Translations under genes and position numbers: made by a program
Source: Austropuccinia psidii
Lineage: Eukaryota > Basidiomycota > Pucciniomycetes > Pucciniales > Sphaerophragmiaceae
NCBI GenBank assembly: GCA_023105745.1
Contig: JALGQZ010000008.1
Coordinates: forward strand, 44,699,618 to 44,763,617
Direction: 5' to 3'
DNA length: 64,000 nucleotides
Notes under the pieces: generated by a model
Seen by the model: only the letters and a program-made list of their open reading frames with translations
Database searches by the model: none
Told to the model about the DNA's origin: nothing
Shown: positions 12,374 through 64,000 of the stretch, piece by piece
Position numbering within the stretch: the stretch's first letter is position 1
Layout of the letters: every line of letters starts with the position of its first letter

Positions 12374-12405
12374 ATCATTCTGATGATGTGATTAATCTGG
12401 TTAAG

Positions 12406-12700
12406 TCCTAACCATGAAATCATCAGAATTATTTTCAGAGTGAGGGAGAGGAGAAGGGGTTTTTTTTGAGTTTGAATTATGAGGGAAGGGGGGTTAAATT
12501 AGATTAAATTGAAAATGGAGCCCTTATAGATTATCCACCCCTATATAAACAAATCATTAAAGAAGTTGAAAAAACAATTAAACAAAATCATCAGCATGAT
12601 CCAATATCATAATAAAAGGATAAATATTAAAACAATTATCCATGATTCCATAATTATACAGAAATTTAGAAAAAAAATATCAGTAATTATCATTATGAAA
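12406..12700. other. Upstream flank of dioxygenase copy A
   Basis: No gene. The sequence aligns with 18130-18480 and with 63590-63770. Shared marks are CTGATGATGTG, AGTCCTAACCATGA, a purine-rich GAGGGAAGGGG run and CTTATA..TTATCCACCCCTA. On the minus strand this is 5' of the dioxygenase ATG, so a promoter or leader role is possible. Confidence 0.45.
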
Positions 12701-14224: not shown

Positions 14225-14819
14225 AACTGGGGGATGGATGGTGGGAGGGTGAGTTGAGCTGGTTTGGTATAGGAGAATGGTGGAGTTGGTGGTGATGGGG
14301 TGATGATGCTGTTGATGAACCTGTTCAAAAAAATTGACAAAAAAAGCTGACCTAGTGAATTTTTTACTGAAAATTATAAAACCCAAAAAAATCACTTCAA
14401 AATTTTTTTCAAAAATCTAAAAATAAGAAAAAAAATCAATTTCAATTAAAGAGTGAAAATTTTACCAGGTTTTTTTTTGCAACAGAAATATTTTGGTGGA
14501 AATGAAGCAGTTTTAATTAAAAAAATCAAAAATGAAGGGGCAATCCAAATGAATTTAAAAAAAAATTGAAAAAATTAAAAATTAAAAACTCAGAGGGAGG
14601 ATTCAAATTCAATTTGAAAAACTTGGTCATTGGTCTTTGGCACATGAAATTTCAATGCAAAATTTTCCCAAATTTTTAATTTTGTAATAAATTGCAATTC
14701 AATTTCAAAACATAAAATCAATTTAACTTTTTTTCCCCCTTGCAAAAAACATCATTTATATTTGACAAATCACCCATTTTCAAATGATTACACATCATAT
14801 ATCTAATAAATTATATTTT

Positions 14820-15990: not shown

Positions 15991-16261
15991 TTCATATCTG
16001 ACTTGATGTGTTTTTATTTTGCCAAGGAATTATTATATGGATGAATAAAAATAAATGGATTGTAAGCTTTTTGGTCAGATTGTCAAAAATGCAGTGTGTA
16101 ATAATATGTTGTACAGTGGTGAATTTTCGATACTCATTTGGGTTAGGTTTCAAACTGAAATCTTATATGCATGGGATTTGATGAAAATACCAGGTGACTC
16201 AGTTAAAATGGCATGTGAGTTACACATGAAAGCCCAGGATTTAGTTTTGGTATTTTGAATC

Positions 16262-16309
16262 CAAATTCAATGTAATTTTAAGGTGGTAATTTGTTACTTT
16301 TACACCCCC
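16262..16309 (-). repeat. Harbinger-type terminal inverted repeat, copy A
   Basis: On the minus strand this begins GGGGGTGTAAAAGTAACAAA. It matches GGGGGTATCAAAGTCACTAA in copy B and AGGGGTGTCAAAGTTACCAA at 60731. The SANT-like gene starts a few hundred bases inside it. The flank TATTA on the plus strand fits the TTA/TAA preference of Harbinger elements, but the exact duplication is uncertain. Confidence 0.55.
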
Positions 16310-17492: not shown

Positions 17493-17499
17493 TGAAAAG

Positions 17500-18128
17500 A
17501 TTAATTTGTCATATTGTTCAAGTTTTGACCATTTTTTATTGTCTGTTTCAATTTAATGAAGAGTCAAACCCGGTTTTTGGGTTTAAAAACCCACAATCTT
17601 CTAGATTAATTAGCAAATAATGAAATAAAAAGTACAAAAGATGAAACACCTGCAGACTTGAAAGAATCAGAACCAGGACAAAAGCCAATAACTTTCATAA
17701 TTCCACCTAGTACAATCTTATTTGTTTCAATTTCTGTCCAAATTTGGGATAAGGTCTTTTGAGATTTGATAGTGGCCAGAAGAATTATCAAATGGGTTTA
17801 TTTCATAAATTACAACAGGTAATAATGGCTTCTTGGTTTTATCAATGATTGCATAAGGATTGGGTGAAGTACCTAAAGATGGAAGTTTTAATCGTGTGGA
17901 ATTGGCTGATTTCTTGTAGATTGAGATTGTTTAGATCTCTTCATATTCTCTGTTGTAAGGGCCAAGGTGAGGCTTGACCTTTTTTGAATTATGTATATGT
18001 TGTCTTTGGCTTTGGGTAAGCTTTCTTTTATGCTTTGTTTTGGTATTATTAACCTCATGATGTTCTATATTTGGTTTATTCTTAATCATTAAATCAAGAG
18101 GAGTAATAAGAGTTGTATCATTTTTCAA
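17500..18128 (-). pseudogene. TET/JBP-like dioxygenase pseudogene, copy B, N-terminal half only
   Basis: From the ATG at 18128 the minus strand reads MKNDTTLITPLDLM, IEHHEVNNTK, LTQSQRQHIH, KPHLGPYNREYEE, then NPFDNSSGHSQISKDLIP and GGIMKVIGFCPGSDSFKSAG, equivalent to copies A and C. After an intron-like GTGTTTCATC the reading continues briefly and is cut off at the duplication junction. The metal-binding half is therefore absent. This copy best preserves the region before the catalytic core. Confidence 0.6.
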
Positions 18129-18943
18129 ATCATTCTGATGATGTGCTTAATATGTTTAAGTCCTAACAATGACATCATCAGAATGATTTTCAGATTGAGA
18201 AAAAGGAGGAGGGGGTTTTTTAAATTTAAATGATGAGGGAAAGGGGGTGAAATTAAATGACATTGCAAGTAGATCCCTTATAAATTATTCACCCCTAAAT
18301 TAACAAATGATTAAAAAAGTTAAGAAAGTATGAAAATTAATCAAAATAATCAGAATTATTCAATATCATAATAAAGAAAAGAAAAAATCCAAAAAAATTA
18401 GCCATGAATTCATAATTATACAGAAATAAAATAAAAAAATAATAATCAGTAATTATCATTATGAAACAAAAAAATATAATTAGTAAAAATTAATAAGAAA
18501 AAAAAATAGTAATGGTTATTTATGAGTCATGAATTATAAAGAAATAGAAAATGAAAAACATCAGTAATTATCATGATGAAATGAAAAAAAATAAAATAAA
18601 ATAAATATCAGTCATGATCATCAGAAAAAAAAGGAGTGGTTAGCTATGATTCATGAACTGAAAAAAAATCAAAAAAAAAGGAATGAATCATTAAAAAGGA
18701 AATATAAAGAAATGAAATTGGTATTAAAATGAAATTGTCAAAAGAAAAAGTAAAAAAAAATGATGATGTGATGAGTTATCATCATCATAAAAATAAAAAT
18801 AAAAATCAGTTTTTGAAAACAATAATCAAAAAAAAAAAGTATCAAAGTCAGAAAGATTTTATAAAAAACAAAAAACAATCAAAAAATATTAACTAATTAG
18901 TTAAAAATCACAAAAAAAGATTCCAATTTATTTGAAGAGTAAA
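18129..18943. other. AT-rich spacer, copy B
   Basis: No gene. It is the counterpart of 12406-14181 without the decamer satellite. Short A-rich runs and an ATGAAATGAAAA-type stretch are present. Confidence 0.5.
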
Positions 18944-18986: not shown

Positions 18987-19579
18987 GACTGGGTGGTGGA
19001 TGGGTGAGTTGAGCTGGATGGGTGATGGGGGGTGGAGCTGGAAGAGATGAGGGTGATGATGCTGTTGATGAACCTGTTCAAAAATAATAATAAAAAGAAC
19101 TGACCTAGTGAATTTTTTACTGAAAATTATGAAACCCCAAAATATTTTAAAAATACAAAAAAAATAAAATAAAATAAGTTTCAATGAAGGAGTTGGGAGT
19201 GAAGGAGTAAAAATTTTACCAGGTTTTCTTTGAAACACAAGTATTTTGGTGGAAATTAAGCAGTTTTAATTTAAAAAAAAAAAATAAAAATAAAGGGGAA
19301 ATTCAAATTAATTTTAAAAAATAAATGAAAAAAAAAGAAAAATAAAAAACTTGGAGGGAGGCTTCAAATTCAATTTTTGTAAAACTTGGTCATTGGTCTT
19401 TGGCACATAAAATGTCAATGAAAAATTTTCCCAAATTTCAAATTTTGGAATAAATTTCAGTTCAATTTCAAAGAATAAAATCATTTTGAAATTTTTTCCC
19501 CAATTTCAAATAAATCTCATTTATATTTTACAAATCACCCATTTCAAAAGGATCACATTTAATATACCTAATACATTAT

Positions 19580-20776
19580 TTTTTATTGATCAATTTCAGG
19601 ATGCGTTTGAGCTCTGCAATTGGTCTGCTTGATGACAATTTCACTATAGTGAGATCTATCTGGAATTGCTTTTCCTCCAGCTCCAATTCCCAATTTCACT
19701 TTTCTTTTTCAAATTCATATTTCATCTTGTGTTTTTTCTTGTCAAACTTTCTTTGTTTTTGTAGCTTCACTTCTTCAACCTGTTGATTTACCATATTCCT
19801 CACTTTCTCTTAATGCCACCTCTCCTTGTCCCACTCCAAACAAGCATTATCACTGGCTTCAGAGGATAGGAACCATACTATTTTTCAGTAGTACTTATTA
19901 AATTAACAATAATTTCAAGACATACCCTTTTGCCATTATTCAAGAAAACTGGCAAATGTAGGTTTAAACATATCCATTGACCTTTTCCTAGATCCACTCT
20001 TGAAATTCAATTTGGGGTTCAATTCTTTATTATGCTGTTGTTTTGAATTTGTTATGGATCTACTTAGGTTTTCAAAGGATAAATAATAAACATTGAATTT
20101 ATAAATATCAGGCTTCAACATACTTACTGATTCATCTTGCAGGTTTTCTGCTACAGCTAAGTCATCATTGTTATTAAGCAAAGAATCAAGATTGGGAGGT
20201 GATTCCAAAAAATTATTCTCCTTTAAAAGAAAAATTAGCTTTAATTATCTCTGGTAAAAAGAAAGAGAGATTAATAATTATTATTTTAAGCAAATGATTG
20301 TCATAATCATCATCACCATTTAAGCTGTCTTTTTCTTGAAAATCATAGCTTGAAATGGGAGTGAAATTGGGCTTGTGGCCAAAGAGTGCATCCATTTTGA
20401 CATAGCAAGGACACATAATTTCAAGCTTTTCACTCATGGATTCAATACCTTCACTCTAATATTCTTTGGTTAGTCCAGCCCCAGTTAAATTTTGAAATTT
20501 TTTTGCTGACATATACTTCTTTTTATACATTTTCTATTGATCTCAAATGCTTCTTGAGCTAAGATTTAGGAAATGTTGTAATTTTTTGTTGACCTCAATG
20601 GCCATAAGCTGAAACACATGCTTCTTTGAAAAAGGAGGCCTTCCAATTGAAGTTGAACCACTAGTACTAAAACATGACTTAAAATTTAATTTTCTTGAAA
20701 GCCAATGAATTATGGTTAGATAATCAGTACAGATTAAGTGATCTGATTGATGAAGAAGCCATGAGGTGATCTTCAT
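19580..20776 (-). pseudogene. SANT/Myb-like transposon protein, copy B, decayed
   Basis: The minus strand gives LTIIHWLSRKL, GRPPFSKKHVF, KKKYMSAKK, LTGAGLTKE and MSEKLEIMCPCYVKMDALFGHK (20213-20776). Then follow an acidic linker, DLAVAENLQDESVSMLKPDIY, SRKRSMDMFKPTFASFLE (19936-20208) and a Lys/Glu-rich helical tail (about 19600-19850). This order, a trihelix-type DNA-binding head with a coiled-coil tail, is typical of the DNA-binding partner encoded by PIF/Harbinger elements. The head carries CPxYxxMDxLFGxKPN, also seen at 15.6 kb and 30.7 kb. Internal stops and frame changes make it a pseudogene. Family assignment is by motif recognition only. Confidence 0.66.
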
Positions 20777-20929
20777 ATCTTACTTGATAGGTTTTTCTTT
20801 GGCATGAGTAATTATTATATTAATCAAGAAATATAAATGGATTGTAAGCTTTTTGGTCAGATTGTCAGAAATGGAGTGTGTAAGGATAACTCATACAGTT
20901 TTGAATTGTGAATACTCATTTGGGTTAGG

Positions 20930-21071
20930 TTTCAAGCTGAAATCCCAGATTCATGGGATTTGATTAAAATACCATGTGATTTACACATGAAAAACCCAGA
21001 ATTTATTGTTGGGATTTGGAAGCCAAATCCCATGTTATTTCAAGGCGGGATTTAGTGACTTTGATACCCCC
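20930..21071 (-). repeat. Harbinger-type terminal and subterminal repeats, copy B
   Basis: Read from 21071 on the minus strand, the end is GGGGGTATCAAAGTCACTAA. Within 140 bases inside it, the word AAATCCC/GGGATTT occurs five times (near 20940, 20955, 21013, 21025 and 21043). A similar cluster follows the terminal repeat at 60731. Confidence 0.6.
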
Positions 21072-25400: not shown

Positions 25401-28400
25401 TTTTATCCAAAAAAAAAAGACAAAATTAACTTTGTTAACTGTTTTTTTTTAAAAAAAAAAAATTGGAAATTAATTTTTTTTTTAAGAATTAATTAAATTT
25501 TGTTCAAAAATTAAAGTATATTTTTTAAAAAATAAAATATAATATAATATAATTTTTTTTTGTAATAAAACATTGCCAAAAAAATAATCAAATAGGAAGG
25601 TAAGTAATAATAGTAGAAGAATGAATATCTCAAAAAAATTCTTTTAATTTTTTTTTCTTAAATTATTAATCATCAATCTCTCAACCAAAGAACCCCAAAT
25701 CAACTCAGTGTTAAAAACTTGAAGAAGTCTAAAAACCTTCATGCAATCTTAACCCAGCCTAATCATTTATATAGAATTAATTGGATGAATATCAAGTCAG
25801 ATTTCAATTTGTGCTTTGGAATTAATAATTCAACATTCATTGGAAGGCCTTAAATGAATAAATTTCCAATTCATATGCTATTTTCATTATTATTTGTTTT
25901 AATTTTATTGATTTTTAGAATTAAATTGAAAATTTAAAATTTAAAATCTATTAATTTATTCAATTTGAAGCTACAAATTTCATTATAAAATTTCTATTTT
26001 TTTTATAATTGAAAAATTAAATTCCTTAAGATTTAATCTTCAATATTCAGTTGTTTTTGTTTTTTCTTTGACTTATTTTAAATTAAACAATTTCAATTTT
26101 TATTATCCTTAAAAAAAACACTAAATGATTTTCTTTTTTCAATTTCAAATTTGAATTTTTTCAATAAAAAAATAAAAATCCAAAAAAAAAGTATAATCAC
26201 TTTTCTTTTTAATTATCTAAAAAAAAAATTCTTAGCTTAAATTAGTAAATATATATATATATATATATAAACAAATTCGATCATTGAATTTTAAAATATT
26301 TGATTTTCAATTTTTCTCAAGATATTTCATTCTCAAATGAAACTCAACAAAAAAAAATAATAATCACTTTTTTTTCAAAAATTCAAATCAAAATTATAAT
26401 TCTTTCAACAAAATTCTCCACACAATTTTCATTTATATTTTTTTTTTTCAACATAAAATAATTTTATTTGATTAATTTTTATTTATAGGTAAATGGTTCT
26501 TTTTTCATTTTATCTTTTTTTAACATAATTGTCATTGCACATCAAAAACTTCCTTCCACGAATCCCAGCCTCTCCCAATCACCTCCTACTATATTCTATG
26601 GAACTGCTAAATTGATTTAAAATTGACTTAAAAGGCTCTTAGAATCAATTCTCAATAAATTGACTAGTTTTTCTGATATATATTTTGTCTTGGAAGCTAT
26701 TGAAGCCTCTAAGACAATTCTTATTTTATTCTTTTAGTATTAAGAGCTTGAAGACCAATAATTCTTTATTTTTTTCATTTTCATCAGAATTTTTATGCTC
26801 CTGTTATCATTTTTTTCCTCTTATGGGGGTGGATTATTTGGGCTGTTTTTTCCTACTTTAACATTATCCTCAAAATTCAAAAAAAATCTCCTATCACTTC
26901 CATGTGAAATTCTAATGATGATGTACTTGTTAAAAGAAAACTTCTTTAATCATCAAGAGATTAATTATTAATAATTTGTCAATGAAAATTCACATAAATA
27001 AACAAAAATCTTGACCTGAAAATGTAGAATAATGAAAAATTTGAGAAGTGATACCATTGAAGCATGTAAGTAATGTTCAATAATACCAATGAGAAAACAA
27101 ACCATCATCAAACACAGTTAAAACTCTCTTGAATAACTCCCCCTCAAAAAATTCTTGTTAATTGATTCAACTAATTTTAAACACCTTTCAATAATTATTT
27201 ATCAAAATAATCAATTTGATGATATTCCAATACTAAAAAATTCAAAATATTAATAATAGGAAATTAATTTTAGAAATCATGAAAGGTATTGGATTTAGAG
27301 AAGGATCCAATTCAGGAAAATCTTCCAGAGTTTATCCAAGCTTACCAAATATGTAAGTTAAGCATCTTGAATAAGATAATAACAATTGGAATTATTTTAA
27401 TTGAAGTATTCTTATATTCCTTAAAGAATGAATTAATTATGAAAAAAAGAGAAAATAAAAATAAAATAATAATCAAAGAATACATATTACCAAATGTAGA
27501 TCAAACTGAATGGTTCAAAAATTCTTCATAAATTATTATAAAAATAAATGGATTTAATAATAACTCATATAAAGATGAGAATTATTTTAATAAATGTATT
27601 TATGATATTTTTTTCATTTATCAAAAAAAAAAAAGAATTTTCTGTTCCAGTTTTAACACCAATAAATTCAAAAAGACATGGTTTAATTTTTACTGAACTA
27701 AAATTTTAACTAAGATTTTAAAAATAAAATGATATAATTTAAATTTTTCCTGGAATAAATTTAAAATTATTAATTAAAACTTGAAACCATAAAATTAACC
27801 AAATTAAAATAAAAAACTTATTAATTTTTATAAATCATTTTTTAATTAACTAAAAATTATTTTATTTTAATAAGAATTTTATGGAAATTTAATCTTCTGA
27901 AGTTAGAAAAAAATAATTTTATCAAAAAGATTATGAACCAAGAAAGATGAACAAAAAATTAAAAAAAGGAAGAATTTTAACTATCTCAAAATTTATTATT
28001 TTAAATCCTTGTAAATATTTGATTTGAAAATTAATTTACAATAAAATGATCAAATTTTTGTCTTAAGTTCAACTTTATTTACTATTCATTATAAAATTCC
28101 AAGGTAAAAGTTTTCATCATTTCTTAAATATTAAAATATTTCTTTAACACTAAGATATATTAAACATTTTTGTATTATGAGGTATATTATTTCTTGAAAG
28201 ATATCAACCTATTGATATACTCCTTTCAAAAACAATTTATCTAACATAAAAAAGATCAAATTTGATTTCAGAAATAATTCCACCTCTTGTCTGTTTCATA
28301 TTTTATCTATAATTTCTTTGAGTGAATGTAATTGTATTTCAAATTTAAAAACTTCATATTTTATATCAACCTAAGATCCTGAAATACAAATTGTAAGATT

Positions 28401-30440
28401 ACTATTATGGTCACTTTTGATTTAAATTTACTATTTTCAATAAAGTCTTAATTATTTGAATAAAAATCAAAAGGTGAATTTTTAAATTCTCATATTTTGA
28501 TAAGAATTGGTGTCATTCAATGAGCCAGAGAAACCAAATATTAATGAAATGATCTCTTTTTTTATATAAAAAAACTAGATTTATTTAGATTAAATAGATT
28601 TATCTTCCAAATTCACTTCCAATTACATCTCAAATACTTATTTTGAAATTATACATACATTTTTTTTACAATAAAAATAAACCTCAAAATCGTTACTGGG
28701 TATTTTTTTTAAAATTATATAAATATAAATTAAATGAATAAAATATATCTTGTAAGCCTTTCCTCTTGTATCAACTCATAAAATATAGCCTTATTTTGTA
28801 AATTTGGCCATAATATTCTTTATCTCTTGTAATTTAATAAGCATGAAATCATTTAATTTCTATATATAAAAATGGAACATCTTCTGACTTGAAAATGAAT
28901 CCCTATATCCTCAATGAGAAAAAACTTTCATCTGATTCTGGTATTGATAAATATACGGCACATTTAATTGATGGGAAATTTTCCTTGAAGCTCAGGCATT
29001 TTCTAAAATTGGGTCATCTTGAAACAGCCGGACTAATATAGCAAATAAATCATGGATGAAATTTACATAAGTACCTAAATTTATCAGTGTATTAATTGGT
29101 AAAGCCATTATATGTGTATATTGAAGTAGTGGGGTTAAAATTATTTTTCATGAAATAAAATATTGCACAAATTTAATTTGAAATAAGAATTTCTTCTTAT
29201 ATTACAGAATAAGAGTTGAACTTTAAATATTGTGTGAAATTTCAATAATTCTAGTTCCTGAATGAAATATTTTTAAATTAATTCTTTTAAAAATGATTTA
29301 AATTCAGTAAATTTGAATATATATTTTAAAATGAATTATATGATCTAATCTTGTATAAATTAAATTAAATCAAATTTACTTGAAAGTGGTTTTTAGAAAA
29401 TATGAGATTTGAAAAAAACAAAAAAAAAAAAAATTAAGTACTAAAAAACATGTTTTTTTTTTTCTTCTTTTAACTAAAATAATATTAATAATTAATTTTA
29501 GGAAATTTATTAAATCCCAAAAAAAAAAAAAAAAAAAAATTAAGATTTTTCTTAAAAAAAATATTTTTTTTTTTTGATTTTGAATTCAGAATTCAAAATT
29601 TTGAGAATTAATTAATAATAATTGCAACTATAATAAATTTAATTAAAATATTAATATATTTTTTTTTAAAAGAATTAATTATTTTTTAAGAGAAAAAGAA
29701 ATTCAATTTATTTAAAATGCAAGAAAAAAAAAAGATAAAATAATTAAGATTTTTTTTTTTTTTTTTAGATTAAATATAAATTAAAGATGAAGAGTAATTA
29801 ATAGTTAAATATATTTTTTAAAAAAAAACAATTAAATTCAATTTAATTTATTCAAGAAAATTCCTCATTATTAAAGGAATTAATTTCCTTAAATAATAAT
29901 AATAGTAATAATATTTTTTTTGAAATGGATTTCATGAATAAAAATGGTCTAATTTGATATTATTCAATATGAATATTTATAAAAATGATAATAGCCCCCC
30001 TCAGAGCTGTAAAACATTGAGTTAATTGAATGCGGGATCTTGAGCTAAGAAAATATTCATATATATATAAATTTTTTGAAGTTGAATAACATTAAATATT
30101 GAACTTTGAACAAATGAATTTTGATATTAATTAAATATTGTTATTTCATAGACAAGTGAGGATAGATTATAAAAACTAACCTCAGAAGCAGGAATTATCA
30201 TCTTTAGAATAAATTACATTTGAAGTGAAAAAAAATCTACAACATCTCAATTATCTTCCATATTGATATTATCAATTGAGATTGAAATCCAATTCCACAA
30301 AAACAACCCTCATCTGAAAATTTATCTAAGGCTGTCTCAAAATCCTCTGTAAATCTTACAAATTCCAAATATTTTGTTATAATAAGCTGGCTTAAATTTA
30401 AGTAAAGAAGAATTTTGTGGCTTGTTTTGAAAATTTTGGA
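25401..30440. other. Extremely AT-rich 5-kb region without recognisable genes
   Basis: Long A and T runs dominate, and a (TA)n run lies near 26248-26270. An 80-codon frame at 27289-27531 has no recognisable motif and is followed by many stops. Short GC islands such as ACTCCCCCTCAA (about 27136) and AGCCCCCCTCAGAGCTG (about 29993) resemble polypurine tracts or element ends on the minus strand. It may be a graveyard of old retroelements, but I cannot assign any of it to a family. Confidence 0.45.
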
Positions 30441-31640
30441 AAGCCCTCAGCTGGATGCCCACCATTATCAAAGAAAGTTGGATGTCAATTGATGGCAAAT
30501 TAAGTCAACAAGAGATCCAAAAATAGATTGAAGCTTACACCCAACAATATGAAATACTGATAGAAAAATTATAAAAAGAAAAATATTTTCAAAGCTCCAC
30601 TGGGGAGGGAGTTACTCATGATGAAAACAAAAAGGGTGTTCATACAAGGGCTCAAAAACTGGAAAGTATTTTCCCATGCCATCATAAAATGGATGAGCGT
30701 TTTGGTAACAGGCCAAATATAATTCCAATGGAAATTTGTAATCTACCAAATATAGATTCAATTGAGTTTCTTAAGTCTTTGGATAGTGATGAAGTATGTG
30801 ATATCTTCTATATATTTTCAGATAAGACTCAAATTACTCAGTAGATTATTAGGTAAAATCTTCACATATCTCCCAATAAAACCCAAATGATAATGAAAGT
30901 GATTAAATATATGCTTATGGGTATGTAGAAGAGGATCAAGAGCAAGACTATGCTGTATTTTATAACTATTTTCAATTATCTCTTGCATTATTATAATATT
31001 TTTGTAATTCAGATGAATAGAGGAAAGAAGCATACTCATTCAGTAACCTCACAGATTGATCCAACTTTTATTATGGATATTACTGATGAGGGTTTGAACA
31101 AGGATGGAAACGTGGAGTCATCCGCGAAGCCTGCCCTTTCTACTCCCTCTAAAAGTCCTATCAAGCATGAATAATTAAAGAATTTGAATCCCAAGAGTGG
31201 TTCATCAAAAAAAGAAAATGACTCCATTCCATCATATGCATGCCATGAGGGTGATCAGTAATAATTTTGATATCTTTAAATAGAGGTTATCTGAGATTAT
31301 TATTTCAAATAGCACAGAATAAAAGTGAGATTGCAAAATTGGATTGGGAGAAAATGAAGTGGAAAGAGGAGAAGGAGGTTGAAATTAAGTGAATTGAGAA
31401 TGCTGAGGTCCAGAATAAACTAGAAATATCATTTGAAAGGGAAAAAAAAGAGAAGAAATTTAATTTTGAAGAAAAGAAATTGAAAACAAAGAGTGATTTT
31501 GAAGAACACAATCCGAGTCTTCAATTGAATTCTCAAAATTATCAAAAAAACATGAGCTTACCATTACAATTTTACAATTCAATTTGTCAGAAACAGAGCT
31601 TGATTCCATTATGAATTTAATTAACAATCAGTGATGTTAT
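30440..31640 (+). pseudogene. SANT/Myb-like transposon protein, copy D, decayed
   Basis: The plus strand shows WMSIDGKLSQQEIQK, GEGVTHDENKKGVHTRAQKL, FPCHHKMDERFGNRPNIIP and LPNIDSIEFLKSLDSDE (30465-30800), parallel to the trihelix-type head of copies A and B. A possible intron, 30921-31012 (GTATGT...TTCAG), leads to MNRGKKHTHSVTSQ (31013-31171). A Lys/Glu-rich coiled-coil-like tail follows (about 31320-31560) and ends near MSLPLQFYNS. Stops occur within both halves. It converges with the dioxygenase-like gene that starts at 32707. The likely role of the ancestor was DNA binding for a Harbinger transposase. Confidence 0.6.
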
Positions 31641-31899
31641 TAATACAATAGTGCAACATATTTTGGACTTTAATAGATGTTCAAGGAAATATATGTGAAT
31701 TACTTATTTGGTGTTCCATGACTCAATGCAAATTGAAAACCCAAGATGCTTTTTGGAATCCATAGGGTATTTTAACTTAATATTTTATGTCAATTTCAAT
31801 ATTCATTAGTGGTGATTTACTTAGTATATAGAGGATTTAATAGCTATGAGTGGGGATTAATATCTCAAATACTAAAAGAAAATGCTAGTTACTCTGACA
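31641..31899. other. Spacer between convergent pseudogenes
   Basis: AT-rich, with no gene or repeat recognised. Confidence 0.4.
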
Positions 31900-32707
31900 A
31901 AAATTATCAGATTTTATTATCATGAGAAGTACAAAAACATACTAATACTTTGGAAACCTGCAAAGAAAGGCCCAAGCATGTATTGGTACAAGTAAAAATA
32001 GAGCTTTCAGTATAATGAATAAAATCCTTGGCCCTCCAAATGATTCGACATATTCCATTAGTTTGAAAAACATCAACTGCAAAGTTATTTTCAGGAAATA
32101 TAAAACACCAATTTGATACTTTATCAGTTGGATTTTTATTGATTAATCCATTGATTTTATCAACTTTAATCCACCATTCAGGTATTTATGTGGATTTTTG
32201 AAAACTTCATTTTTGGTAAATGCCAAAGATGATGAAAAGTCTTGAGGAGTTACATCATCATGAACAGTATTGGAAAAAGATGGAAGCCCATTATTTAGAA
32301 CTTTTTGTTGTGCTTCGATAAAGAGTTCAGAGGCTTCATGTTGACATTTTTTTTGAAAGGTGAAGTACTGCCCTGGCTAGCATTGGTTACCAATCATTCC
32401 AGTCTTGAATTTTCTTTTTGATCTTACTTGTCAATCCATAACATCCAATGCTTTCATTCTTTGTAATCGATTTCCCCCATCCAAGATACCACATTTCAGC
32501 TGAGAGTATCTTCTTATTTATTTTAACTTTCTGTAAGTATTTTTTCTCTTGAAATAAGGTGTGTGAAAGGTGATTAAATTCAATTTTATCTTCTGGAGTA
32601 ATTTGTGAAAATGGCAAAAAGTCTATTATGGCAATTAAAGTTTTATTTGGGGAAAAGACAAGGGTGGACTTTGAGGAAATAGTGTGGAATTGACCATAAT
32701 TATTCAA
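31900..32707 (-). pseudogene. TET/JBP-like dioxygenase pseudogene, copy D
   Basis: The minus strand opens from 32707 to 32387 with LIAIIDFLPFSQITPEDK, LSAEMWYLGWGKSITK and IGCYGLTSK. In successive frames it continues with ASELFIEAQQKVLNNGLPSF, FSSSLAFTKNEVFKNPHKYL (about 32185-32250), NGICRIIWRAKDFIHYTES (about 32000-32060) and TCLGLSLQVSKVL (about 31950-31990). The order (sheet-rich N-part, HxD site, IIWRAxxxxHxT, then TxLGxSxQ) fits TET/JBP-type Fe(II)/2-oxoglutarate oxygenases known from basidiomycetes. The HxD Asp reads Tyr, and the Arg expected before LGxSxQ reads Cys. Sequence identity to copies A-C is low, so this is a separate lineage. Frame changes make it non-functional. Confidence 0.62.
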
Positions 32708-33012
32708 AAATGAAAAAATTTCCTTGGAATTCTATGATTTGTATATTTCTGGATTAATATATTTCCATTTTGAAAATTTCCTCTTCCTACTTTTGTGAGG
32801 GTAACATCAGATAATTCAGAAGAATCATCAGCATTATCATCCGAATTATGGAAGGCTTTTGAGGTGGATGGTATGAGCTTCTGAATTCTGTCTAAAAAGG
32901 AATTTAATAAAATTAGAATTAAATGTTGGGAATATTTTATTCTATGATGTGAAACACCTATAAGCTGAACCTATTCAGTATATGATATGGTCACAGATCT
33001 TACAAGGTCACT
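32708..33012. other. Flank upstream of dioxygenase copy D
   Basis: No complete gene. AATCATCAGCATTATCATCC near 32822-32843 would encode an acidic stretch on the minus strand, so the dioxygenase N-terminus may extend here. Confidence 0.35.
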
Positions 33013-34925
33013 TGTGAGCCTTGAGGTATATTTTACATACCCAAATAGGCCACAATCATCTTAAAAATAAAATCTGAATTATGCATAACTAATAAGTCAT
33101 GCATATGTCCACAATTCATCATTTTTGATTTCAGAAAAGATCAATAAATTTTTATTGAGTAAGTAAATCCATAGATTTAAGGCCAGATTTGGATTCTACA
33201 CAAAAATTCACCTAGGGTAGCTCCATAGAGTGAATAAGCTCAAATTAACTCTTTGAGATGGTAATATGGAAAATACTTCAACACCACATCAAAGATCTGT
33301 AAAAAGTTTTGTTTTTCTTAATTTCACGCCAAAATAATGGGAATGTGAGAAATCCCATGTTACATATACACTAAGAATAGTGTTATTCATGTTTTGGGCT
33401 CTTAATATCATGGTATTCTTACATGGACTTTTGGTACACCCATAGGGGATATCTCACTTGAAGCTTAATTTTCTATTTTGACGTGAAGAATAGGAAAGGG
33501 GGACAAAAGACATTCAAGAGAGCCAGGACACCCAGCTTCTGAGGCCTCAGAGACATGGACAACTCCAAAGCTTGGATCCATGGCTAATCTTGGCCTAATC
33601 GGTAAACTAAAACCTTTTGGGAACTTGGTTACCATGTTACAACTACAGTAAATCTTAAGAAAATAGCAAATAACCTGCTATTTTGACATGCCAAGGAGGT
33701 AAAGAGCTACTTAGACTCCTTTAACCATGTAAATTCTTAATGAATTTCCATGGATAAACCCCAAAAGAGTAATTAAAACCCTTTTTGGACTTGTATCCAT
33801 TGATTTACCTCATAGCAACCAGTTAAACACTGATATTTGCAATTCTATGTAGAAATGAGGTAAAAACTTCAAAAATTCATTAAAAATACAATTCTTAATG
33901 AATATCTCTGAAACTTTTAGTACCAATAGAGAACTGTATTATCTATGGTAAAACCAAAAAAATATGGTTTTACTAGTAAAATTCAAAGTTTTACTTACAG
34001 TCCATTTTTGACTATTCTATGTGAAACACTGAATTTTCAAAAATTAACAGTAATTATAACCTGTGATGAAGTTTCCAATAACATTGATAGCTTTGGGAAA
34101 TAAATGATTATTTTGGAATGAAAGAATATTTACAGATGTTAATCATTTTATTTTTAACCATATTGGGGTTGGTAGTCACGTAAAAGCATCAATTAAGTAA
34201 TTATGATAATCTTACATGACAACAGATGATGCAATCAATAATCCAAAAAGGTTTACTGTTTTCTCACTCACTGGTTTTTCATTTTTCTCCATAGCACGCC
34301 TCTGTGAGCTGTTGTTGACTTAAAAGAGGCCTCCTCTTGCTGTTTTTTCCACATCATCATCATCATCTTATTATCCATTTATATCATTGTTACCAACAAG
34401 TACATATTAGTTAAAAGCTATTCTTAAGTGTTTCAATTCTTTCAGAATCCATCAGAAATACTTGAAATCATATAATCCAACTATATATTGTTGAAATACT
34501 CTTATACATTCATTTTGATCCTTTAAATCCACAATTCTATGTCAAGTCTCTCTATCTTATCTTTCAATAAGTTCTTTGGAATATTAGTGAGTGATTTATC
34601 TTTAGTTCTTAAAGTTTTTCTCTAAAATTAGTTTTCTTCAAGAATTATTGTTATAATTATTCTTGCAAAAGATAATTATATATTAAAATAATTTTATTAT
34701 TTTAATAAAAAGAAGTTTTATTATTGAAATCTTCTAGTAATTGATTCTTGTAGACAATTACTTTCTCACTGTTAAAATAACTAGTAGTGCTTAACACGTG
34801 AAAAAAAATTCTTTAATTATTTGATTGTGGTTATAATAGCACTTTTTTATTATATTTTGTAAGAACAGTCATAGTACTTTTTATTAATAGTAATATTATC
34901 ATTAGCTTCATAGGCACATCTTACA
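33013..34925 (+). mobile_element. Solo LTR of the young Gypsy family
   Basis: The sequence starts TGTGAGCCTTGAGGTATATT and ends GCACATCTTACA, like the 1921-bp LTRs of the element at 45209-55598. It is 1913 bp and diverged by some percent by eye. TCACT flanks it on both sides (33008-33012 and 34926-34930), a clean 5-bp target duplication. No internal region is attached, so it is a solo LTR left by recombination between two LTRs. Confidence 0.95.
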
Positions 34926-34984
34926 TCACTAATGGTTGTATAATATCACTAACATTTGATTATAAAATGATCTCACTTGCCTTG

Positions 34985-36600
34985 CAATTTTACTTTTCTT
35001 TCAATAGCCTCAGCAACTCATTTTTTATGTCTCTTACTTTGGTAAACCATTCTATTTGTTCAAGGAAATGATAAAATACTTGAAAAACCACTTCCCAGAG
35101 GTACCAAAAGTGGGAGAGAGCAAACATAAGAGTAAGAAAACTTACATTTCCTTTGTTTTTTGTAAAGCAAATAACAAAATACTTTGAAAAATTACTCCTA
35201 GATGTACTGAAGGTGAGAGTGATAATAATAAAATGAAAACTTAACTTACCTTTTTTCATTTTTTTAAAAGGAATTAAGAAAAAACTCAAAATAAAGCTAA
35301 AAATAAATTAACTAAAGTACCATTTAGAGGTACTGAGAGTAAGAGTGAGCAAGAGATCAAAAAAAAACTAAAAAAAATTTTCAACAAAAATAAAATTTAA
35401 TTGATTAAAGTACCTCCTAGAGGTACTGAGAACCAGAGCAAGCAAAAGAAAAAAAAACTCACCTTTTTTTGTTTTTTTTTGAAAGAAGTTGAAAAAAAAC
35501 TAAAAAAAATTAATTAGAGTAAATCTTAAAGGTACTGAGAGCCAGAGAAAGCAAAAGAACAAAAAAAAACAAAAAAAAACTTACTTTTTTTTGTTTTTTT
35601 GAAAGAAATTAAGAAAAACTAAGAATTATAAATTAATTAAATAAAGTACCTCCTAAAGGTACTGAGAGCCAGAGAGAGCAAAACCACAAAAAATCTACTT
35701 TTTTTGATTTATTTTGAAATAAATTAAAAAACTCAAAAAGTAAAAAATAATTAATCAGAGTACCTCCCAGAGGTACTGAGATCCAGAGTGAGGAAAACAC
35801 AACAAGAAACCTACACTTTTTTTATTTTTTTAAAGAAATTTCAAAAACTGCAAAATAATTAATTAGAGTGACTCTTAGAGGTACTGAGAGCCAGAGAAAG
35901 GAAAAGAACAAAAAAAATGACTTTTTTCTTGTTTTTTTGAAAGAGCAAGCAAAAACATAAAAAAACCCTACTTTTTTTGTTTTTTTTTGAAAGAAATAAA
36001 AAAATGAAAAAAATAATTCAAGTACCTCCTAGAGTACTGAGAGCCAGCATGAGCAAAACAACAAAAAAAACTTACCTTTTTTTTTTTCAAAAAAATTAAT
36101 TAAAGTACCTCCTAGAGGTACTGATAGCCAGAGAAAGAAAAAGCACAAAAAAACCTACTTAGTTTTGTTTTTTTCTGAAAGAAATCAAAAAGAGTACCTC
36201 CGAGAGGTACCAAGAGTGAGTTCAAGAAAAATAAATAAAAACTACTTGCTTTTTTTGTTCTTTTGAAGAAAATAATAGAAAAACTAATAAAAGTACAGAA
36301 AGTGAGAGAAAGAAAGAAAAAAATCAAAAAGAACAACTTAACATTTTTCCTCATTTTTTCAAACAAAAAACACAAAATAAAATAATAGAAAGAACTCTAA
36401 AGATGAATTTCAAGCTGGAAGGCCTTCCAGAGGTATTGAGAGTGAGAATAAGGCAAAAAAACTCATTCATTCAGTTATTTTTCCCAAAAAATTGAAAAAG
36501 AAATTGGAAAAATTAGGTGAGAATGCCTACTAGAGCTTATGAGAGTGAGGCTAATTTTGGAATTTATTTTTCAAAATAGGATTTCAATAAAAAAATTAAC
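34985..36600 (-). repeat. About 14 degenerate units with a palindromic core
   Basis: Units of roughly 85-125 bases start near 35087, 35207, 35320, 35410, 35518, 35645, 35759, 35870, 36020, 36104, 36194, 36294, 36420 and 36525. The best conserved part is AGTACCTCCTAGAGGTACTG followed by AGAGCCAGAG; the first 19 bases are self-complementary (AGTACCTC / GAGGTACT). On the minus strand many units show a donor-like GTAAGT, GTGAGT or GTAGGT, then a T-rich stretch of about 40 bases ending TGGCTCTCAG just before the palindrome. The array lies directly after the stop of the minus-strand Harbinger transposase. Confidence 0.85.
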
Positions 36601-36736
36601 AGAACAAAACAAAAGTTAAAATAAGAATGAAAAATTGGGCAGAATGGCTTCAACAAGGAGCGTTTGTATTGTTTTTATAAATGAAAATATTTAACTATAT
36701 TAAAAAGATGCTTGAGTTCATAAAAAATAATTAAGA

Positions 36737-39700
36737 TTAATTATTATACCAATCCAAAGTAAATGGTTTTATTTTTTGCTGGATATTTGGTCCTATTCCA
36801 ATATGCTGTCCTTCATTTATTACTTGCAGCTCTGGTGGGTCTCCATCATAATACAGTGTGAGCCATTGGTCACCAATTTTTGATAATAAATTATGTAAGA
36901 GTACACAGGTCATTACCCAATTCAATTTTTTTTGAATATCTTAAGGGCCTTTAATTTGAAATCACATTTTCTGAAAACTGGACCAAAGTAATTTGAGCAT
37001 ACCAATGGCATGCTCAATACAGACCTTTGATTGAGAAACACAATAGCTAATGTGAGCCTTAGAGGTATTTTCATATACCCAAAAGACCACAAATGATAAA
37101 TTAAGATACAAATAAAAATAAAATAAAATAATTTATGTTATAAAAATAAAAAATTGAAATATAAATACAAATTTATATTTAAAAATCAAAATTTAATTAT
37201 AATCTAAAAATAAAATTACAATAAAACTTAAAATTATGAAAATACATTTTTACTTGTAAAAATTAAGTAAAAAATGAATTTTTTAAAAATTATGAAATTA
37301 AAATATTTTTGGTAAAAATTTATATAAAATATATTATAACTTTTCATCCAATAAACAAACATAAAGAAATTATCACACCATTGGATTCCTCATAATAAAT
37401 AAAGTGGGGTCACTTCTGGATGAAATTTCTGTAACTCAACTCTAAATAAGCTTAAATTAAGTTTATAGTATTTTTTGTACAAAAGTATGAAAATCCTCAA
37501 AACCTTAATTTAATTCACACCACATGTGGTTTTAACCATCAATTTTTGTGTTAAAATTGAGGTGTTGTGTTTAGTTTAGAAGTTATGAGGAATTGAAGTA
37601 TTTTCAATTGAAATGTCAAAATGTGCACGTGTATTACATAAGTGAACTTTAATTTACATATGAGGTATCAATTACTACAGATGTGTAATTAAAAACTCAA
37701 TTAAATTACATATGTAAATTATAATTGTATTACATGATGAGGAATTAAAGAAAAAATAAATTGGAAAGATTAATTCTGAGGGGGGGGGGGGAAAAGACAC
37801 TCTAGCTCTACAGGGGAGCTAGACCCCCAAAATCCTTGCTGACTTACGTGGGATGTCAAAATTCATGCAAAAGTTCATTACTTGTGGCCTGGAATTGAGT
37901 CACAGGGTCTGTGACTCAATTGATGATGAGGTTTTGATACCAACCAGGGTAGTTCTAACTGCTGCCAAGAGGGTAAAACTACCCTTAAGTTAAAATGGTG
38001 TTAGTAAAAACAGTTTGAACTGGCTTCTACGCCTCTGACACACATTCCGACGTGTTTTAAAGGCTCTAGACCAGGTATTGCTATAGTAATGGCTGATCTA
38101 AGGGTCTAAAATGGCTAAAACCAGGGTTCAATGATGCCATGATTGGCTTTTTTGTTGTCAGAGTGTTTTCCACGACTGACAAGAGTAAAATTTACTTTTG
38201 GAGTAAGAAAATTGATGGCTATAAAGGAATGTCTTCTTTGGCCCACTTTTCTCCTCATGTTAGAATCTTTTCCTTTTATAATTAGTTTAAACACTGTTAA
38301 ACCAATCAGTAAAAGATTCCAGCCACCCTTTTTAAATCATTTTAAACCTTTTACCACATGAAAAAATCATTATAATCATTTTTTGTAACTCTTATAATTA
38401 TTTTACCCCTTGAAAAACCCCAAAAGTGAATTAAAGCATTGTTCATCACTGTTAACTTTGTCACTTTGTTTCCAAATTCACTCTGGTCACTTTTGGGCAT
38501 GTTTTCTCTTTAAATATCTTTTTAAAGAATTTTTTCTTTAATTAATTGCTTGCAGCTCTTTGCTCAATTAATTCCAATTGAAATTGCTCTTGAAGAAATT
38601 TCTTTTGTAGCCTTAAATATCTCTTGTAGAGTATTTTTGGATAAATCTTTATTGTTGGTAAAACAATAAATTTTTATTAAATTATTGCTTTATACTTACA
38701 AAGTCAAAAACAATAAAATTGGTGTGTTTTCTCTTAAAAATACTATTTCTTACTATCTTGAAATAATTTTACCTTATAAAAATTTTGAGGACAGGAAAAG
38801 TACTTGATATTTTATCAAAGTTTCATATCCACACCTTACAGCTAAATTCTTGTTGATCATTGTTTTGGTTCAAGTCTCCTTTATATGATTTAATAATATT
38901 ATTTGAGCTTGAATATTCTGAATCAGCCAGTAAGTATTGATTTTTGGAGAAGAATTGTTCACGATTTTTGTAAATATTAATATGCTGGAATACTCTTGAG
39001 TCTTGAGCTGAGCCTGGAAGACCAACATGTAAGGCTAAAAAGAGCTTACTCACATCACAAAAAAGCTTAATCTAAATTGAGTAGCTATCCCAAAAAATAC
39101 AATTGATCATTTGTATATATCAATCTACATAACATGTTGAGGTAAATACTTGTGCTTTATATCAAAATACACTTCTGAATCATTGGGTGGCCTTTGAGAT
39201 AATGATATAAAGCTTCCATCAATAAAACCACTCCAACAAGGAAATCCTTCTTCTTGCATCACCTGAGATAGCTCCCTGAATTCATGATAATTTGGCCATG
39301 CAAGATAAGATAACTTGTGTTTTAATAATGATGCAATAATTATTTTGGTGTAAAGGATGACATTCCCCTGAACAATTCCAAACAGTGCCCCAATACTTCC
39401 AATCAGAGATCCAGTACCATTTCTCTCAAATTGGCAAAGCGCTACAGCTAATTGTATACAAATATTGCATTTATTTAAATTTGAATTTTTATGGAAAATT
39501 TTGTCCAAACTGATAAGTTGGAGGAAGTCTTGAAAGCTTGTATACAAGGTTTGACATAGTTTCTTAAATTTCCATCAAAGATGGTAAACCTGCCAAATCA
39601 CTACTTTGGTAAATATATAGTGGTTGGTGAAGCTTAGGGTTGGTTAGATATTATTTTTCATGGAAATAAATGAGTAAGAGAATGTCTTTCTCAAGATCTT

Positions 39701-39786: not shown

Positions 39787-39789
39787 TTG

Positions 39790-55598: not shown

Positions 55599-55603
55599 GC
55601 GAA
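55599..55603. repeat. Target-site duplication of the young Gypsy, right
   Basis: GCGAA, identical to 45204-45208. After it the old element's reverse transcriptase resumes on the minus strand. Confidence 0.97.
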
Positions 55604-60570: not shown

Positions 60571-60730
60571 GTAGGGTGTGGATATAAAAATTTGATCAAA
60601 AAAAAAGTACTTTTCCTGTACTCAAAGCTTGTTTCAGGTGAGTTTGTATAAACATATTAATTTCAGAGTTTAAGAGAAAAACACACCAAATTTTTTAATT
60701 CAACCTTCTCAGTATAGAACCAGAATATTA
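60571..60730 (-). repeat. Partial 5' LTR of the old Gypsy
   Basis: TGTAGGGTGTGGATATAAAA, GTACTTTTCCTGTACTCAAA and GAGAAAAACACACCAAATTT match the complement of the LTR end at 38680-38840. The LTR is cut at 60730 by the Harbinger terminal repeat, so its remaining part should lie beyond the window. Confidence 0.8.
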
Positions 60731-60910
60731 AGGGGTGTCAAAGTTACCAAATCCCACACTCCAAATCCCAAGTTTTTTCTGGGCCAAATCCTGCATTTAC
60801 TTTTTGTGATTTAAGAAATCCCACACCTCAAGAGGTGAGGTATTTTGAGGTACCAAAACCCATGTTTAGATACTAGAATCCCATGTTTAGATTCACTTCA
60901 AGGGACATTT
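60731..60910 (+). repeat. Harbinger terminal repeat and AAATCCC cluster, element C
   Basis: AGGGGTGTCAAAGTTACCAA follows TTA (60728-60730), a typical Harbinger target. AAATCCC or AAATCC occurs at 60749, 60763, 60786 and 60816, and CACCTCAAGAGGTG (60825-60838) is a palindrome. Copies A and B have the same terminal sequence at 16309 and 21071. Confidence 0.72.
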
Positions 60911-60935
60911 TTACAACACACAACTCAGTAAGGGC

Positions 60936-62269
60936 ATGTTAAATTGCATAAAACTCCCCTCCTCTTGCATAAAATCTGAATATACTGGTCATTTATTAAG
61001 TTATTTTATTTCAAATTGCATTTTCTATACATCTTTTCTTCATTTACCATGCCAAAGGCTACCTTTACTTCAGAACCTAAACTCACTGCAGTTAATTGAT
61101 GCTCTCAACTATGATAGTGATTCTGATATCCAGGAAGATATAATATTATTTGATATGATAACATCACAAAGATACATCAATCCTCGTAGAAGATATCCAT
61201 CACATTACATGTATACAATGTATGATTTACAAACATTATCATCTGAAAATTTTTGAAAGATATGTAGGACCACACACAAATCATTTGAAGAGATGGTTGC
61301 AAAAATTAAAGCTGATAAAACCTTTCAAAACTCATCACAAAAAAACAGCACAATCCTGCCATCCAATTGGCTGTTGCACTATCAAGGCTAGGATAAAATG
61401 GAAATGGGGCTGCTTTGGGAAAGATTGGAATGTTATTTAGAATTAGCCATGGGAATATTGTGTTGTACATTCAAAGAGTGATCCAGATATTAATGAAGTT
61501 GAAGCGTAAAGTGATTGTGTGGCCAACAATAGAACAACAAAGAGAGATGTCCCAAGTAATTCAAGCAGAAGGCTTCCCTGGGTGCATTGGGTTTATTGAT
61601 GGGAGTCTCATACCATTATCACAATGTCCCCCCAATGATGGTGAAGCCTATTTTGATTGCAAAAAGGAGTCATCTGATGAATTTTTATTCTTTATTTCCT
61701 TCTTACTGATTGTTTACAATTAAGGTATTCTATGTCAATACAACTGGTTTGCAACATAAAGAAACAGTTCACTGCTCTACAAGTTGGGTGTACTGGGTCA
61801 CTTCATGATTCAAATGTCTATCAACATATGAAAATAGCACAAACACCTCAATAGTCAGTACTTACTTGCCGATTCTGCATATGCAAGCTCTCGTTGGGTT
61901 GTTCCAGCATATAAGGGAGTTTTAGCACAGAATGAAGACAACCGTTCTTTCAATTACTGTCTAGCAAAATTAAGAGTCAGAATCAAGCATGCAATTAGAA
62001 TTTTGAAGGGGCGGTGGATTTCTCTAAGGGAAATGCAAAATAAAATGAGGGATAATCATGAAATTGAATATTTTGTTAGTTGGGTTATTTCTTGCACAAT
62101 TTTACATAATATGTTAGCACAAATTGGCAATGAATAGTTTGATCTATATGAGGATGATGATACACCTCATGCAGAAAATTTGTCCAATAAGAACATTGAG
62201 GAAGATGTGGTAAATATGTGTGAAAAACTTAAAACAATTACTTTGGCATGGAAAGATAGTCAATTGTGA
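60936..62269 (+). pseudogene. PIF/Harbinger transposase, element C, inactivated
   Basis: This is a DDE_4-type transposase reading in pieces. Visible are LIDALNYDSDSDIQED, ITSQRYINPRRRYP, GNIVLYIQRVIQ and VWPTIEQQREMSQVIQAEGF. The first catalytic Asp is in GCIGFIDGSLIPLSQCPPND (codon 61598-61600) and the second in GSLHDSNVYQH (codon 61807-61809). LLADSAYASSRW, VPAYKGVLAQNEDN and LAKLRVRIKHAIRILKGRW follow. The catalytic Glu expected in RIEHAIG is Lys (codon 61985-61987). The end is ISCTILHNMLAQIGNE, then LAWKDSQL and a stop at 62267. An intron probably lies at about 61670-61723. With stops at several places and the lost Glu it is dead. It converges with the dioxygenase-like gene to its right. 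Confidence 0.87.
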
Positions 62270-62356
62270 ATTTCATCAGTACCATTGATTTATGTACTTA
62301 ATTTAATGGCATACAACGGAGTGGAGATGTTATTGATAAGATAAAACTATTTAAAA

Positions 62357-63575
62357 TCAATATTTCTTAGTTCTTTTTTGGTCTCTCATATTTCTTTCAA
62401 AGTACCCATTGACTTTGGAATTAATTTTGGTGGGTCTCATTATCAAGAATTTGTCACCTACATTAAATAATTTATGGTTTATTTGAAAAGAGAATCCAAA
62501 ATGAGTGATTTCTTTATGATAAATAATTTCTGGAGGTGGTTTTGTTGTATGATGAACCATTGTTGATGTCTTCCAAAGAATTTCCATGATTCCAGGTTTT
62601 TTTTGAAAAATAAATCTTCATTATCAATTCAGGGAAGTGCAAGCCATGTCCAGAGGGGGTGAAGACAGTTGGAAGGGGATGGAAATTGTTTTTTGATTCA
62701 AAAGAAAATATACCATAAGTCCAGGAATTGAGATCATTTAAATCTTGATGTGGCTTATTGAAAAATACATTTTGAGTGACAATGACATTAGTAAATGATT
62801 TGAATTACTGCTTTGAATTTGCACAAGTCCAATCAAGTTGACTGAAGTTTGATAATTTGGCTGCTTTCATTAATGACTTATTTTCATTTGCAGCTAATTT
62901 TGAAAAATGTGAAATTCTTGAGTAAATGAATTAATCATATTGATAAAGTTTGGACCATTGATTATTATCTATTTAAATTTGATGAGGAGTTAAACCTGAT
63001 TTTCTGGAGTAAAAACCTGAAAATGTTGTAATTAATTAGCAATTATTAAGATAATAAGCAAAAGAAGATCACACACCTGCAGATTTTCCAGAATCAGAAC
63101 AAGGACAAAACCCAATACCTTTCATAATGCCACCTAGGAGTTGCTTATTGGTTTTAATTTCTTGTCAATTTTGAGATAAGGACATTAATGTCATGATGAG
63201 GTTTTGGAGCATTTGAGAGTGCCCAGAAGAATTATCAAAAGGGGTTATTTCATATATGATGACAGGAAAAAAGGGCTTTGTTGATTTATCAATGAGTATA
63301 TAAGGATGGGGGAGAGTACTGAGAGATGGAAGTTTTAACCATGAGGAATTGGCTGATTTCTTGTCAATTGAAATGGTTGAAAAGTTTTCATATTATTTTT
63401 TTGAATGGCCAAGGTGAGAGATAATTTGTTTTCAATCATGAATGTGTTGTCTTTGGCTTTGGGTGAGTTATATTTTATTAATTGGTTTGGTATTTTTATC
63501 CTCATGATGTTCTATATTTGGTTTAGTCCTAACCATGAAATCAAGAGGTGGAATAATAGCTTTATTATCTTTCAT
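62357..63575 (-). pseudogene. TET/JBP-like dioxygenase pseudogene, copy C (best preserved)
   Basis: From a minus-strand ATG at 63575 the reading gives MKDNKAIIPPLDFM, LTQSQRQHIH, YEITPFDNSSGHSQM and GGIMKGIGFCPCSDSGKSAG. A 60-base intron follows (63017-63076, GTGTGTGATC...TTTTCAG), then VFTPENQV. Next come YSRISHFSKLAANENKSLMK, FTNVIVTQNVFFNKPHQDLN with HQD as the metal site (about 62755), NSWTYGIFSF, PTVFTPSGHGLHFPEL, GIMEILWKTSTMVHHTTKPP with the distal His (about 62555) and ITHFGFSFQINHKLFNVGDK (about 62450-62510). The position expected to be Arg reads His. Several stops and a poly-A frameshift near 62605 remain. The element continues past the window, where a SANT-like gene is expected by analogy with copies A and B. 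Confidence 0.66.
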
Positions 63576-64000
63576 ATAATTCTGATGATGTGCTGAGTCT
63601 GGTTTAGTCCTAACCATGACATCATCATATTGATTTGAAGAGTGAGAGAAAGAAGGGTTTTTTTTTGAATCTTAATGATGATGGAAGGGGAGTGAAATTA
63701 AATGAAATTGCCAAAAAAACCCTTATAAATGATCCACCCCTATATTAACAAATAAATGTTAAGAATAAACAAAAATTAAAAAAAGAATCATGTGTCAGTA
63801 ATGATAATCATCCAAAAAAAAGAAAATAATCATAAATTAAATATGATTATGACTAAAAAATGAAAATAAAAATAAATAATCATTATTGATTTGATATGAT
63901 GATTAAAAAAAAATAATCAGTCATCATAATAATCCAAAAAAAAAGAGAAAAAAAACAGAAGGGTCAGCAATCACAATGATCAAAAAATAAGATCAGCATC
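63576..64000. other. Spacer upstream of dioxygenase copy C
   Basis: This aligns with 12380-12560 and 18120-18310 (CTGATGATGTGCT, GTCCTAACCATGACATCATC, GATCCACCCCTATATTAACA). The last 200 bases are A-rich with repeated AATAATCAGT/AATCATC words, as in the spacers of copies A and B. Confidence 0.5.

Follow-up and report, generated by a model that had tools for sequence, protein, structure and literature searches.

A decayed Harbinger-type transposon with a Tet-like oxygenase gene inside its inverted ends, and its relatives in Austropuccinia psidii

The stretch of DNA analysed here (the window) comprises 64,000 nucleotides from the rust fungus Austropuccinia psidii (assembly GCA_023105745.1, contig JALGQZ010000008.1, positions 44,699,618 to 44,763,617 of the forward strand). 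At its right-hand edge lies a transposon copy, here called copy C, in which a Harbinger-type transposase gene and a Tet-like oxygenase gene stand side by side. When the window was extended beyond 64000 with a genomic stretch (L009), copy C was found to run from 60731 to window-equivalent position 66661 (5,931 base pairs, bp) and to contain, in this order, an inverted end, the transposase (+), the oxygenase (-), a third gene (-) and a second inverted end. Its features are:

60729..60730: left TA target-site duplication (the right TA follows directly after window-equivalent 66661, outside the window)
60731..64000: part of copy C within the window (the rest, up to 66661, holds the third gene on the minus strand and the right end, both read from L009)
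60731..60766, plus strand: left terminal inverted repeat, about 35 bp, with 29 matches over about 35 bp to the right end
60980..62266, plus strand: transposase gene disrupted by frame changes, exons at about 60980-61651 and 61681-62266, with a DDE_Tnp_4 match in exon 2
62363..63719, minus strand: Tet-like 2-oxoglutarate- and Fe(II)-dependent (2OG-Fe(II)) oxygenase gene, disrupted by a frame change as well as stops, exons at about 63719-63072 and 63035-62363

The transposase and the oxygenase lie tail to tail with a gap of about 90 bp, in agreement with an earlier sequence-only reading that had described a Harbinger transposase and a TET/JBP-like gene converging within 100 bases. That reading had also proposed to look beyond 64000, where both expected parts were found: the third gene (-) at 4869-6099 of L009 and the second inverted end at 6379 of L009, which corresponds to 66661. 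The end sequence GGGGTGTCAAAG occurs exactly at 60732-60743. With at most one mismatch it has three matches in the window, against 0.24 expected, and the other two are the ends of two further copies, A (16309) and B (21071). Joined without the element, the flanks of copy C read ATTATT, like those of several other copies. All three genes are damaged: the oxygenase segment has a stop and a second frame piece, the third gene a second frame piece and the transposase a frame change.

The copy C transposase piece at 61838-62137 matched DDE_Tnp_4 (E = 3.9e-11), while the other two transposase pieces of this copy that were tried matched no family. Exon 2 of the transposase in a copy from elsewhere in the genome (L013) scored 77.6 bits against the same family (cut-off 24.8). 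For the oxygenase, the relevant family is PF20515, the Tet-like 2OG-Fe(II) oxygenases. One of the two copy C pieces first tried (62514-62804) matched it below the cut-off of 27 (22.3 bits, E = 1.5e-4), and ten more pieces from A, B and C gave no relevant family match. The second oxygenase exons of two genomic copies, on the other hand, scored well above this cut-off (92.8 bits in L013, 94.5 in L023); the first exons of the same two genes had no Pfam match. All 31 protein relatives of the oxygenase piece contained PF20515; 30 of them are named Austropuccinia psidii (MF-1) and one is nameless. The HxD motif and the downstream HH are still legible in copy C. Across 21 copies the presumed metal ligands are mostly retained: both HxD residues, H as well as D, in 19 copies each, and the two residues of the HH after it in 18 and 20. 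Relatives of the third protein came from the same source, A. psidii MF-1 (four of four matches in one search, and all 120 listed of 259 in another); ten of these relatives have lengths of 292-349 residues, and two of the ten carry a partial annotation.

To see copy C among its relatives, we searched the genome (1,015,390,075 bases in 84 contigs; the published A. psidii assembly holds about 1 Gbp per haploid set, PMC8063080) with the exact 12-mer of the element end. It occurs 1051 + 1050 = 2,101 times, compared to 20 + 18 = 38 times for the reversed control. Copies were drawn from 100 listed places of these 2,101, all within approximately the first 65 Mb of one contig (C1), and the sample consists of every plus-minus pair of 12-mers less than 10 kb apart (n = 23), with wider pairs and lone ends outside it.

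In 20 of these 23 paired-end copies the transposase, the oxygenase and the third gene all lie inside the ends, in identical order and orientation. On this count, chance neighbourhood of transposase and oxygenase was rejected. The central claim of the sequence-only reading, a Harbinger-type element with a TET/JBP-like gene inside its own inverted ends, is supported by these 20 copies together with copy C, and the further full three-gene copies that it called for exist. Neither full copies without the oxygenase nor ends that exclude it appeared in the sample, the three remaining copies being one deletion and two short copies. The former (L027) is an internal deletion whose retained parts are 98-99% identical to the full copy L013; transposase exon 2 is almost entirely missing from it, as is the 3' part of the oxygenase. 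Of the element, the two short copies (L028 and L032, 2.2-2.3 kb) retain the ends and 82 bp within oxygenase exon 1, the remainder being gone. They are 95.6% identical to each other over 1.9 kb and constitute a non-autonomous subfamily. Identity between copies reaches 99.3% in the coding segments compared, and we infer that the element has moved recently.

The inverted ends are about 35 bp long and start with GGGGGTGTCAAAG. Among 24 elements (the 23 copies and copy C), the alignment between the two ends covers 25-37 bp in 21 and about 60 bp in the other three (L018, L021 and L023). A TA flanks the element on both sides in 21 of the 23 copies, as it does in copy C. The sequence-only reading had expected a TTA/TAA duplication; a 3-bp duplication was found in none of the 23 copies, and this candidate was rejected in favor of TA. 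When the flanks are joined without the element, the result is AATAAT or the complementary ATTATT in 19 of the 23 copies.

We assessed selection on the three genes in 21 copies (the 20 full copies and copy C; A and B were excluded) by counting changes relative to the commonest codon. Private changes, seen in one copy, were taken as mostly arising after insertion, and shared changes, seen in at least two copies, as mostly inherited through active copies. Codons were used if they were covered in at least 12 copies and had a majority codon (157 of 167 in the oxygenase, 156 of 172 in the third gene, and 85 of 92 and 88 of 99 in two transposase segments). For the oxygenase, the ratio of nonsynonymous to synonymous changes was 203/58 = 3.50 among private changes, compared to a spectrum-weighted neutral value of 3.9, and 66/44 = 1.50 among shared changes (Fisher p = 8.6e-4). 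Similar results were obtained for the third gene (private 152/49 = 3.10, neutral 3.41; shared 38/28 = 1.36; p = 0.0074) and for transposase segment 1 (private 69/21 = 3.29, neutral 3.26; shared 12/12 = 1.00; p = 0.021). Without CpG transitions the p values were 0.0011 for the oxygenase, 0.0060 for the third gene, and 0.012 and 0.23 for the two transposase segments.

These counts indicate purifying selection on the oxygenase. Its lower ratio among shared than among private changes suggests that the gene was maintained during the active life of the element, under a constraint about as strict as that on the third gene. Kojima, in the published account of such elements, describes the genes of TET-carrying Harbinger elements as mostly undisrupted (PMC12730594); the count of shared and private changes is an addition of the present analysis to that remark.

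Decay of the copies is concentrated at CpG. Transitions were found in 164 of 625 site-copy cells at CpG sites versus 398 of 11,589 at the remaining C or G positions. The observed/expected CpG ratio was 0.30-0.41 in the seven copies that are at least 97.6% identical to another copy over the coding segments. Ten copies have a nearest relative below 93%; in nine of them, copy C included (0.14), the ratio was 0.05-0.14, and in the tenth (L031) it was 0.29. It was 0.09 for the stretch of A and 0.05 for that of B, insertions included. The presumed active site of the transposase is affected as well. A residue within 61838-62137 in copy C, which we take to be the catalytic glutamate, has changed to lysine in eight of 21 copies, copy C included, and a CpG spans its codon and the preceding one. 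At this CpG six of the 21 copies carry a silent change in the preceding codon, five have kept the CpG and two have a different preceding codon. Such CpG-centred decay is the pattern expected from deamination of 5-methylcytosine. The transposable elements of A. psidii are reported to be hypermethylated at CpG, younger families more so (PMC12774611).

Placed by the published description of PHISTA (PIF/Harbinger-ISL2EU-Spy), a lineage named by Kojima (PMC12730594), copy C is on its sequence features a decayed TET-carrying PHISTA element, a member of that branch of the PIF/Harbinger (PHIS) superfamily which makes TA duplications and is known from rust fungi. In the mechanism that we propose, the DDE transposase would excise the element and insert it at TA, as is known for the family. 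The third protein, perhaps divergent and Myb/SANT-like, may help transposition by finding the ends. The oxygenase would oxidise 5-methylcytosine on the element, which could let the element escape or delay silencing by methylated CpG (5mCpG) and the ensuing C-to-T decay. This oxidation step is suggested by the protein family, the methylation of the host and the selection signal. We infer that the oxygenase probably serves the transposon rather than the fungus. Taken jointly, a decayed TET-carrying PHISTA copy with this mechanism is the best explanation of the data, and we consider it very probable.

Several observations weigh against it. Two copies (L011 and L020) lack the TA on one side. The sample comes from approximately 65 Mb of one contig and has the exact 12-mer at both ends, and it is biased to young, complete copies. 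The second transposase segment did not show a significant difference (private 76/24 = 3.17, neutral 4.48; shared 31/17 = 1.82; p = 0.17). The selection test ignores the tree and was made on parts of the genes, and some of the shared changes may have arisen more than once. Finally, young TET-carrying copies are already poor in CpG (0.30-0.41), so protection, if any, would be incomplete.

One alternative is that the oxygenase is a passenger that lies inside the element by chance and plays no role for it. Kojima calls the transfer of such genes between transposons passive (PMC12730594), L027 has lost most of the gene, and the two 2.2-2.3 kb copies keep just 82 bp of it; however, the oxygenase is inside the ends in 20 of the 23 copies, its shared changes indicate that amino-acid replacements were selected against (p = 0.0009) and its presumed metal ligands persist in 18-20 of 21 copies. 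On this balance a passenger appears quite improbable. Another possibility, less remote although still unlikely in our view, is that the enzyme has a substrate other than 5-methylcytosine: another base, another modification (for example, glyceryl transfer) or host genes. The Tet-like name of PF20515 and the mostly retained HxD...H motif argue against this, as does the presence of 5mCpG on the transposable elements of the host (PMC12774611). It is consistent, on the other hand, with the published observations that CMD1 is among the nearest solved relatives and that other activities are not excluded (PMC12730594), and with our sequence search of solved structures, in which L013 oxygenase exon 2 found nothing at E <= 1. 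Oxidation of 5-methylcytosine for the benefit of the element is the reading that we prefer to both.

The nature of the third protein is more evenly balanced. It could be a DNA-binding partner of the Myb/SANT type, as in Nuwa and canonical Harbinger elements and contrary to Kojima, who reports the third protein of PHISTA as having no Myb/SANT domain (PMC12730594); we give the two views equal weight. Myb_DNA-bind_4 matched the third proteins of L013 (E = 0.26) and L023 (E = 0.23) below threshold. At E <= 10 it was found in three of 16 main-family third proteins (best E = 0.092, all sub-threshold), and Myb_DNA-bind_3 or _4 in three of six from a sister family described below (E = 0.048-0.067, below the cut-off). 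These matches fall in a common part of the profiles, and a low-confidence structure model would place three longer helices in the matching stretch. However, Pfam gave nothing above a cut-off for the third protein, and no Myb family matched at E <= 1 in 14 third-gene proteins. In one main-family protein (P0013) the unrelated Rep3_N scored better than Myb (E = 0.011), and the sister-family protein L042 had three unrelated weak matches alongside its Myb match. Two of eight shuffled controls produced similar values (E = 0.046-0.099) to unrelated families, and the predicted structures are poor, with predicted local distance difference test (pLDDT) scores of 60.7 and 46.6.

The window also contains further relics of such elements:

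9362..12550, minus strand: copy A oxygenase relic, with an interruption of about 1.9 kb at 9548-11405
14817..16022, minus strand: copy A third-gene relic
16274..16309, minus strand: copy A inverted end, then TATTAT
17493..18323, minus strand: copy B oxygenase relic, 5' part only
19579..20812, minus strand: copy B third-gene relic
21036..21071, minus strand: copy B inverted end, then TATTAT
25740..29241: older relic E with the layout of the main family, third gene (+) at 25740-25850, oxygenase (+) at 27125-27961 and transposase (-) at 29241-28269, all weak matches (short pieces at 24-69% identity)
30402..39673: second-family relic D, third gene (+) at 30402-31631 and transposase (-) at 39673-36740, with other repeats between

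The sequence-only reading had copies A and B carry the third gene, which it labelled SANT/Myb-like, and the other terminal repeat in the same relative order as copy C. Relics and ends are indeed present in both, but they do not represent two separate insertions. A tandem segmental duplication spans 11745-22181, in which pieces of 11745-17453 match 17500-22181 at 75-88% identity, including about 1.1 kb of the flank of A. Since B repeats A piecewise together with this flank, A and B are best seen as one insertion event that was tandemly duplicated, and independent insertion was rejected. No transposase match was found beside the copy A oxygenase relic, which has lost the HxD histidine and the following HH. 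Copy A also contains a near-perfect tandem repeat of the ATAAAAATAA type, approximately 1 kb long (12695-13711); none was seen at the corresponding place in B.

Two other repeats were observed in the window. A large hairpin at 37849-41810 has arms of about 790 bp (607 identities), ends with the sequence GGGATGTCAAA and a transposase relic between the arms. It was considered as another copy and rejected: its ends are similar but have no adjoining TA. A segment of about 1.9 kb is present three times (33010-34926, 45206-47130 and 53675-55599). The distance between the latter two is 8,469 bp, and a direct comparison of one 300-base piece showed no difference there.

Relic D, whose oxygenase match is weak ((-) 32098-31943, E = 0.001), led to a sister family. 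A genome search with its third-gene part (30402-31631) gave 2,353 candidates, of which 150 matches were scored and the best 20 were made into loci of 3.3 kb each: the window's own locus and 19 others at 64-74% identity to the relic. Matches below the best 20 may include the main family, and two of the loci (L035 and L036) look like duplicates. Third proteins of the sister and main families are 40-46% identical. An oxygenase match was present in 11 of the 20 sister loci (in the range L033-L053), at 26-34% identity over short pieces and always on the strand opposite to the third gene. In the main family, by contrast, oxygenase and third gene share one strand. The one longer stretch, L053, has the third gene (+), the oxygenase (-) and the transposase (-), and its transposase is 50% identical to that of the main family.

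The opposite strand in the sister family would be explained if the oxygenase had been captured or replaced separately. It could be speculated more broadly that in these two PHISTA-like families, whose oxygenases (26-34%, over short pieces) are more diverged than their transposases (approximately 50%) and differ in strand relative to the third gene, the oxygenases were captured or replaced separately and kept by selection; we regard this as a tentative proposal, somewhat short of even odds. If it is true, the oxygenase would be a repeatedly recruited anti-silencing gene, the benefit of which could be read from copy-to-copy substitutions.

Transposons that bring their own DNA-demethylase-like enzyme would be a natural test of mobile DNA against silencing. 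This genome offers copies both young and old, some of which lack the oxygenase, in a host whose 5mCpG has been measured, and a comparison among them could test the assumed anti-silencing role. A start in that direction is made by the selection signal and by the CpG decay, which has also hit the site presumed to be catalytic in the transposase.

The linkage itself is not new. The sequence-only reading took a connection between Harbinger and TET/JBP genes to be undescribed, and this did not stand, because Kojima (December 2025; PMC12730594) described elements of the same kind: fifteen TET-carrying Harbinger families with TA duplications in six rust species, namely five species of Puccinia and A. 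psidii itself. Among the listed literature matches on PHISTA, Harbinger and TET, the word PHISTA was found in this paper only, and the A. psidii genome papers of 2020 and 2025 do not use the word Harbinger in their main texts. Like PHISTA, the present element makes a TA duplication and unites a Harbinger-type transposase with a TET/JBP oxygenase and a third protein. No essential difference was found in a comparison made by published description rather than family by family. What is added here is the AATAAT/ATTATT site, selection on the oxygenase, the CpG decay, the deletion derivatives and the sister family in which oxygenase and third gene lie on opposite strands. Nuwa and canonical PIF/Harbinger elements also have a Harbinger-type DDE transposase and a further, possibly DNA-binding, protein. 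According to Kojima (PMC12730594), however, they make 3-bp duplications, and Nuwa has two proteins in all, one of them a Myb/SANT protein; here the duplication is TA and an oxygenase is present. The KDZ elements (Kyakuja, Dileera and Zisupton) are likewise fungal transposons with a TET/JBP gene, but they are described as having a transposase of another group and duplications of 7 or 8 bp (PMC12730594).

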